From positions 310,001-374,000 of the forward strand of contig JACPUT010000018.1 in NCBI GenBank assembly GCA_016192145.1: 64,000 nt of DNA, read 5' to 3'. This stretch comes from Acidobacteriota bacterium. Its GTDB lineage: Bacteria; Acidobacteriota; Holophagae; Holophagales; Holophagaceae. Every line of letters starts with the position of its first letter. Position 1 is the first letter of the stretch. Shown piece after piece: positions 48,557-49,217 of the stretch. The position numbers and the translations under genes were made by a program. The notes beneath the pieces are model-generated. The model was given only the letters and a program-made list of their open reading frames with translations. It was not told where the DNA came from and did no database searches.

Positions 48557-48633
48557 GGCTGGGTAGCTCAGGTGGTTAGAGCGAGGGTCTCATAATCCCT
48601 AGGTCGGCGGTTCGAGTCCGCCTCCAGCCACCA
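48557..48633 (+). tRNA. tRNA-Met (anticodon CAT)
   Basis: The gene folds as a complete cloverleaf of 77 bases. The acceptor GGCTGGG pairs with TCCAGCC, the D-arm has GCTCAGGTGGTTAGAGC, the anticodon CAT is at 48591-48593 and the T-arm is GGCGG-TTCGAGT-CCGCC. The CCA end is encoded. The anticodon stem lacks the three G-C pairs of an initiator, and has a T-T opposition next to the loop. It is therefore elongator Met or, if the C is modified to lysidine, tRNA-Ile for ATA. Its 3' end is the starting point of a tandem repeat (48624-49012). Confidence 0.93.
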
Positions 48634-48639
48634 AAACCG

Positions 48640-48670
48640 AAGGAGGACGGATGATCCGCCCTCCTTTTTT
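48640..48670 (+). terminator. tRNA terminator, repeat copy 1
   Basis: AAGGAGG-A-CGGA pairs with TCCG-C-CCTCCTT around TGA and is followed by T residues. It starts 7 bases after the tRNA CCA. Confidence 0.85.
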
Positions 48671-48844
48671 CTTGTCGAATTACGGATGGGAGGCGGACTC
48701 GAACCGCCGAGAAGCAGTGGCCGGCGGGTAGGGCCCCAATGGGAACCTCCAGTGGAGGCTCCCATTGGATCAGGCCCGCGCCGAGCCACGCGCAAGGTTC
48801 GAGTCCGGGTCCGATGGGTCGAAATCAACCAGCCACCACAACCG

Positions 48845-48875
48845 AAGGAGGACGGATGATCCGCCCTCCTTTTTT
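48845..48875 (+). terminator. Same terminator, repeat copy 2
   Basis: This is an exact second copy of the 48640-48670 hairpin and T-run, in the second tandem unit. It has no intact gene just upstream, so it is probably a passenger of the repeat. Confidence 0.7.
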
Positions 48876-49217
48876 CTTGTCGAATTACGGATGGAGGCGG
48901 ACTCGAACCGCCGAGAAGCAGTGGCCGGCGGATAGTGCCCCAATGGGAGCCTCCAGTGGAGGCTCCCATTGGATCAGTCCCGCGCCGAGCCACGCGCAAG
49001 GTTCGAGTCCGGCGTGGGTGGGTAGAGGGTACTCCGGCCACCCATCCAAGCTCCGGGAAGTGGTTGTTCCGGGGATTCACCGACTTTGTCCCGAACCGGG
49101 CTGGGCGGGGATTGGTGTCGTTGAGGGACGCGTTGGGGGTGACAAGGAGGTTCGCGGAGGCGCCCCTGGATACCATGAGAACCTCGACCCCTTTTCCAAC
49201 CCACATGGGGAGGACCT

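Follow-up and report, generated by a model that had tools for sequence, protein, structure and literature searches.

Tandem non-coding repeats directly 3′ of a tRNA gene have been described in the tyrT/tyrV operon of E. coli, where the rtT element (RF00391) forms units of 178 bp in the same position as the units reported here. To our knowledge, an RNA product of rtT behind tyrT has been described, and its origin has no accepted account. Behind tyrV of E. coli K-12, rtT carries a 19-nt direct copy of the tRNA end and a 10-nt inverted copy (GGGGAAGGAT), with a hairpin-forming core between the two. RtT RNAs have been reported next to tRNA genes in Pasteurellaceae (PMC4986893), and RtT RNAs near tRNA genes were found to be expressed on Northern blots (PMC4986893). 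The attC sites of integrons combine AAC/GTT boxes, extrahelical bases, an unpaired central spacer, and a variable terminal structure and are recombined through their bottom strand (PMC2727003).

The locus studied here lies in a window of 64,000 nucleotides, the whole stretch of DNA that was analyzed. It comprises a tRNA-Met(CAU) gene, the single tRNA found at the locus by ARAGORN and Rfam (48557-48633), followed by two repeat units. Its features are given below, where R1 denotes a covariance model built from nine units.

48557-48633, + strand: host tRNA-Met(CAU), CCA encoded (ARAGORN; Rfam RF00005, 64.1 bits)
48610/48611, + strand: inferred insertion boundary, T-loop G53/T54 within the host tRNA-Met(CAU)
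48634-48688, + strand: trailer of unit 1, with an imperfect terminator-like hairpin (about 48640-48666) and a T-run (sequence, scan)
48689-48710, + strand: inverted T-arm copy of unit 1, 22 nt, exact (inverted-repeat match)
48711-48795, + strand: conserved hairpin core of unit 1 (R1 116.6 bits over 48691-48809; fold -80.2 kcal/mol, z -7.1), made up of GAGAAGCAGTGGC, a GTAG bulge, a CTCCAGTGGAG tip, and a 3′ part of the type GCC-A-GCCACGCGC
48796-48808, + strand: T-arm copy GGTTCGAGTCCGG, closing unit 1 and opening unit 2 (repeat search)
48809-48828, + strand: short interruption, about 20 nt, within the displaced copy of the tRNA 3′ end (sequence)
48829-48838, + strand: second copy of the tRNA 3′ end, CCAGCCACCA (repeat search)
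48839-48892, + strand: trailer of unit 2 with terminator-like hairpin (about 48845-48871; direct repeat, 98%)
48893-48914, + strand: inverted T-arm copy of unit 2 (inverted-repeat match)
48915-48999, + strand: hairpin core of unit 2 (R1 113.8 bits over 48895-49013; fold -80.1 kcal/mol, z -8.5)
49000-49012, + strand: terminal T-arm copy (sequence match)

An initial annotation of this DNA had described two near-identical units of ~205 bp, each with a tRNA 3′ end copy, a T-arm copy, and a hairpin. This description holds: the two units are defined by direct repeats (66 and 134 nt long, 204-205 nt apart) that are 98% and 93% identical. The tRNA 3′ end CCAGCCACCA is present at 48624 and 48829 and the T-arm GGTTCGAGTCC at 48609, 48796, and 49000, with the exact inverse of the latter at 48695 and 48899. 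The 22-base exact inverted T-arm that had been noted in each unit was recovered, the first forming a perfect inverted pair with the tRNA itself (48604-48625 and 48689-48710), as were the 16-bp hairpins (48736-48768 and 48940-48972). When the tRNA 3′ end was compared with the 400 bp downstream, the longest inverted match was 23 nt, compared to a maximum of 11 at 300 random 400-bp places of the 64-kb window. The array does begin at the tRNA, as annotated, but inside its T-loop and not at 48557. Similarly, the units start with the tRNA 3′ end, except that the second copy is interrupted by about 20 nt (48809-48828); comparable interruptions occur at the equivalent place in two other loci (L103 and L107). 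The terminator that had been assigned to each unit is present as a terminator-like hairpin, but its + strand stem contains an A·C mismatch, and the terminator scan called the - strand version only. A weak promoter-like site is found in each unit on the - strand (48883-48856 and 48678-48651), directed towards the antisense strand of the tRNA, with 9/12 matches and 0.1 such sites expected in the region.

The tRNA-Met units are members of a clade-wide family of gene-end palindromic elements and not local debris. When relatives were searched by BLAST with the region, the antisense T-arm and hairpin part was recovered 3′ of tRNA-Val and of two CAU tRNAs, one of them tRNA-Met. R1 matched 50 of the 77 genomes of the same bacterial family, and R2, a covariance model built from 99 units, matched 58 of them with up to 14 matches per genome; the possibility that the unit is confined to this locus or absent from relatives, raised initially, is clearly false. 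R2 found no match in 16 genomes of sister families of the class, and among 297 genomes of the phylum, a single one outside the family was matched (G192, at a tmRNA 3′ fragment near a contig end). In the window's own genome, the covariance-model search identified, besides the pair at tRNA-Met, a single unit at tRNA-Val(GAC) and another at tmRNA; the tmRNA unit is listed twice because it is repeated at two contig ends. Many unit matches lie at contig ends. That the second copy might be an assembly error is spoken against by the imperfect units and by tandem arrays in many other assemblies; tandem arrays of such units also occur in single-contig assemblies (G004, G034, and G071). Phage and plasmid records contained no match to the units, and the literature on Geothrix and Holophaga repeats and on repeats behind tRNA genes yielded nothing on the present family.

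All matches whose upstream flank is available directly follow the 3′ end of a tRNA or tmRNA, on the same strand, first units being located 7-94 nt 3′ of the tRNA. Where ARAGORN called no tRNA, the locus was a tmRNA gene, the end of a contig, or the far boundary of an island, marked by a 3′ fragment of a tRNA or tmRNA. The hosts comprise at least 23 tRNA kinds and tmRNA, namely three CAU tRNAs, Val(GAC), His, Ala(GGC, CGC), Arg(TCT, CCG), Gly(CCC), Glu(TTC, CTC), Asp, Ser(GGA, CGA, TGA, GCT), Asn, Gln(TTG), Cys, Leu(CAA), Pro(CGG), Phe, and tmRNA. The inverted arm best fits its own host tRNA in 70 of 73 units when compared with 11 other kinds. We also used an inverted-tail test in which the core plays no part, searching within 320 bp downstream and counting scores of 16 or more. 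By this test, 11 of the 60 tRNA genes of the own genome, about one in five, are followed by their own 3′ end in inverted form (scores 16-27); the upstream search of the same 60 genes, which served as control, gave a maximum score of 9, and two further downstream scores of 11 come from a pair of convergent tRNA genes. The search of relatives that the initial annotation had recommended likewise found copies at many other tRNA 3′ ends, and its idea of a repeat family spreading through tRNA ends is supported by both results.

The fit between arm and host extends to host variants. At tRNA-Arg(TCT), the inverted copy often tracks them (tRNA ..AGCTAGGCGC.. with ..GCGCCTAGCT.., and ..AGCTGGGCGC.. with ..GCGCCCAGCT..), with some exceptions. 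The inverted copy reaches the end of the T-stem at Met, Val, Arg, and Ala and forms one palindrome with acceptor, CCA, and terminator at Ser, own-genome Val, and Arg, while the direct copy that closes the unit begins at G52/G53-T54 in the main types. In one tRNA-Asn array (L202, G007:C155), ARAGORN called three false tRNA-Gly(ACC) genes, which lie on the - strand over the inverted arms (1238-1651). The own genome also contains a dense tRNA array with 29 tRNA matches in about 7.4 kb (C7:677811-685209), many of them duplicating tRNAs that this genome also encodes at other places; one member of the array, a tRNA-Pro(CGG), has an inverted tail.

The phenomenon is not limited to tRNAs, since arrays of similar layout are found at the 3′ end of nuoD (L260-L263, in G060, G027, G067, and G070; gene identity from the NuoD model, 520.7 bits). 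These arrays, which were reached through sub-threshold RtT model matches, consist of tandem copies of the last ~30 nt of the gene separated by an inverted gene-end piece and a GC-rich hairpin core. RF00391 had no match above its gathering score of 45 bits in any of the 77 genomes, and the best match, 29.5 bits, was at nuoD. We rejected homology of the nuoD core to RtT because this score falls short of the cut-off and what is matched amounts to a simple GC-rich palindrome; what the nuoD arrays share with E. coli rtT is the layout alone. Several tRNA units (L056, L119, L127, L122, L134, L149, and L208) contain an insertion of another palindromic repeat, about 94 bp long (TGACTCGGGCCTCCGGCCCTCGCCC..GTCCTATCCTCC..GCGGTCGGATGGT), which also lies after the inverted arm at the own-genome tRNA-Asp (L358).

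A unit opens with the rebuilt 3′ end of its host, running from the T-loop to CCA and often including the trailer and terminator; then come an inverted T-arm, a core, and a new T-loop at which the next unit of the tandem starts. The inverted copy covers the host T-arm and often the acceptor as well. The core, a hairpin some 85 nt long, has a GTAG bulge, to which the main type adds a bulged A; other units that we folded gave structures similar to those of the window units (-80 kcal/mol). Across 99 aligned units, 95.1% of cells were paired, compared to 70.2% after shuffling, and two-sided changes were present at 32 of 37 pairs. Covariation was 0.535 versus 0.148 when shuffled and at most 0.07 when slid, a signal to which the model-fitted alignment contributes part and of which a nine-sequence MAFFT alignment gave the same picture. 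The unpaired features are also conserved: the GAGAAG-type spacer, the GTAG bulge, the bulged A, and the AGT tip. Core pairs change from G-C to C-G or A-T and almost never to G·U. G·U accounts for 0.5% in core helices, where other mismatches amount to 3.7% in all, so that per type it is no commoner than those, compared to 5.9% in the acceptor and T stems of 75 tRNAs. As an RNA helix should tolerate G·U and a DNA helix should not, the near absence of G·U indicates that the hairpin core is probably selected as folded DNA. Opposite the T-loop T55, a G·T wobble was seen in 44 of 73 scored units.

These pairing data bear on the view that the unit is a structured RNA, a processed by-product of the tRNA transcript comparable to the RtT RNA, with a regulatory role and an inverted arm that is paired, as RNA, either to the tRNA or to the T-arm copy within the unit itself. 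Strong covariation, the constant tRNA strand, and arms that tolerate G·U are all consistent with such an RNA, as are the units, for instance at tRNA-Arg, that have no terminator between tRNA and hairpin; the Northern blots of RtT RNAs near tRNA genes (PMC4986893) offer a precedent. However, G·U is avoided in the core helices as strongly as other mismatches, and many units sit behind a terminator-like hairpin. Moreover, a self-folding RNA needs no host specificity, and similar arrays occur at the end of a protein gene, nuoD. We therefore consider a structured RNA unlikely. The antisense T-arm singled out by the initial annotation is indeed a key feature of the unit, but the antisense pairing with the tRNA that it envisaged is not favored because the inverted arm closes a hairpin with the unit's own T-arm copy and because the core pairs in a DNA-like manner.

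Watson-Crick-only pairing would also be predicted by templated correction if the units were passive palindromes, that is, inverted copies produced by replication template-switching at the tRNA or terminator hairpin and then duplicated in tandem, with neither mobility nor function. The long palindromes that span terminator and tRNA end at Ser, Arg, and Val fit this origin, as do the tandem copies. Yet correction alone would remove bulges, and both the bulges (GTAG, A) and the tip are conserved among homologous cores from different tRNAs and different genera, which makes a passive origin rather improbable.

The cores themselves have changed hosts. A tRNA-Ala(GGC) core in G005 is 94% identical to a tRNA-Met core in G062, which belongs to another genus, while its arms are Ala-specific; cores therefore move, with the arms refitted. 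Mean core identity is 0.754 for the same host in different genomes versus 0.535 for different hosts, so that cores are mostly inherited at their own host and transfer between hosts is rare. Core similarity between hosts of the same genome was marginal (p = 0.06), and part of the core sharing could be due to gene conversion. Orthologous tRNA-Arg(TCT) loci of related species contain one, two, or more units, or a residual inverted arm alone, and several core types are represented.

Integrative elements are also present at these tRNAs. Islands are inserted near the anticodon loop of tRNA-Met or in tRNA-Val (L103, L106, L107, L130, and L052); they part the tRNA from its array and leave a 3′ tRNA fragment, with the array intact behind (L103, L106, L107, and L130). 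The initial annotation had offered attachment-site debris of such elements as one explanation of the units, and integrases do target tRNA 3′ ends. Nevertheless, the islands seen here leave a direct 3′ fragment from near the anticodon loop and have boundaries that differ from those of the units, and no integrase island bounded by a unit was found in the loci read. Debris would leave the inverted copies, the covarying core, and the many hosts unaccounted for; in addition, no phage or plasmid record matched, and the six pattern matches in viral contigs were all without the fold. We regard this origin as highly implausible.

Our main reading, to which we assign a probability of about one half, is that the units are miniature non-coding palindromic elements that inserted at the T-loop, rebuild the host gene end, and act as attC-like folded DNA sites. 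When a unit is exposed as a single strand, its two T-arm copies would pair to give a hairpin whose presumed plan is that of an integron attC site: a stem at the base, then an unpaired spacer, and then an inner stem that has an extrahelical base and ends in a variable tip. A cellular recombinase might then exchange strands in the T-loop (G53|T54, a GTT), by which the unit would be inserted or duplicated; the tRNA would survive, its 3′ end being supplied by the copy within the unit. At a new tRNA host, the arms could be recopied from that host, for example by priming from GGTTCGA, a T-loop sequence common to most host tRNAs, and the inverted arm might subsequently undergo hairpin-templated correction. 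Several observations count against this reading: none of the enzymes examined tracks the elements, the classical attC sites of the clade are not homologous to the cores, the T-loop departs from the attC heptamer consensus, transfer between hosts is rare, the G·T wobble opposite T55 does not follow from it, and neither excised circles nor new insertions were seen.

Among candidate enzymes, a Y1 transposase of the REP type was rejected as the mover, with 13 of 77 family genomes positive and none in the own genome. A reverse transcriptase (PF00078) copying the tRNA end was also rejected; because it occurs in 23 of 77 genomes and is missing from the own genome, a retro-origin is not supported. The clade does encode a recombinase that works on such hairpins: an integron integrase above cut-off is present in 46 of 77 genomes, and classical chromosomal integrons with 124-bp attC arrays (GCCTAAC..GTTAGGC) beside a full-length integrase were identified in G061, G004, and G071 (L254, L256, and L257). 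The own genome has two full-length integron integrases, one on C5 (L252, C5:64000-83000), about 650 bp from tRNA-Ser(CGA), and one at C6:186626-187567; no canonical attC was found near either.

We therefore considered whether the units are genuine integron cassettes, attC sites put into tRNA T-loops by a resident integron integrase. The attC-like plan, the extrahelical base on the 3′ arm, and the GTT at the boundary suggest this, together with the distribution of the integrase, which adjoins a tRNA-Arg array in G083 and lies within 1 kb of the own-genome tRNA-Ser. However, when eight integrase loci were searched for cores, this tRNA-Arg array was the sole clear match, and co-occurrence of integrase and elements across genomes was not significant (Fisher p = 0.11). 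Of 40 element-bearing genomes with 90% completeness or more, 12 have no intact integron integrase. Further, the classical attC sites of the clade are not homologous to the cores, and the R′ box is off consensus. The integron integrase was thus rejected as the agent, attractive as plan and neighborhood are, and we hold integron cassettes to be very unlikely. Since the integrase is not significantly linked to the units and the attC sequences are unrelated to the cores, the attC likeness concerns the possible working of the units and not their membership.

A broader proposal, which we advance tentatively and give less than an even chance, is that the units represent a new class of mobile DNA. Such palindromes, which carry no genes, would colonize tRNA and tmRNA genes and some protein genes at their 3′ ends and, with every move, copy the end of the gene they enter anew in both orientations. 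If so, the host gene would stay intact, the element would always fold, and E. coli rtT would be an isolated relative. In this clade, the arrangement is naturally replicated well over a hundred times, across some 23 kinds of tRNA and with the arms fitted anew to every host, which makes origin and mechanism accessible to comparison and assay. If units move, a gene-less element can retarget to any tRNA without harm; if they are recombined as folded single strands, attC-like chemistry would operate outside integrons, suggesting a link between the tRNA T-loop and the integron site. In practical terms, the units break assemblies and mislead tRNA finders into false antisense tRNAs.

Compared with known systems, the units share with attC sites complementary base boxes with AAC/GTT, a length of about 120 nt, a tandem head-to-tail arrangement, and a variable tip. 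At the positions of the R″/R′ boxes, the window units have GAAC/GTTC and many others have GGAC (wobble); the inner stem has an extrahelical A in its 3′ arm, and the GAGAAG/CGC internal loop occupies the place of the unpaired spacer. The consensus of the attC heptamer is GTTRRRY, from which the T-loop of the units, GTTCRAN, departs by its C at position 4. Unlike attC cassettes, the units carry no gene, their R′ box is the tRNA T-loop, and they are not homologous to the attC sites of the clade. They resemble REP sequences in being short imperfect palindromes with a GTAG tetranucleotide at the stem but differ from REP/RAYT systems in being confined to gene 3′ ends, in an own genome without Y1 transposase. 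With tRNA-integrating islands and phages, they have in common that the tRNA 3′ end is used and restored, whereas they have inverted arms and no integrase; their boundary is at the T-loop, that of the islands seen here near the anticodon loop. The rtT layout, in which units that include direct copies of the tRNA 3′ end follow the tRNA in tandem, is also that of the present units, although rtT, judged from the one E. coli tRNA locus examined, has a short inverted arm without the T-loop and no GTAG/bulged-A core. Layout and host-fitted flanks together point to an undescribed family of gene-end-rebuilding repeats whose design is related to that of E. coli rtT.
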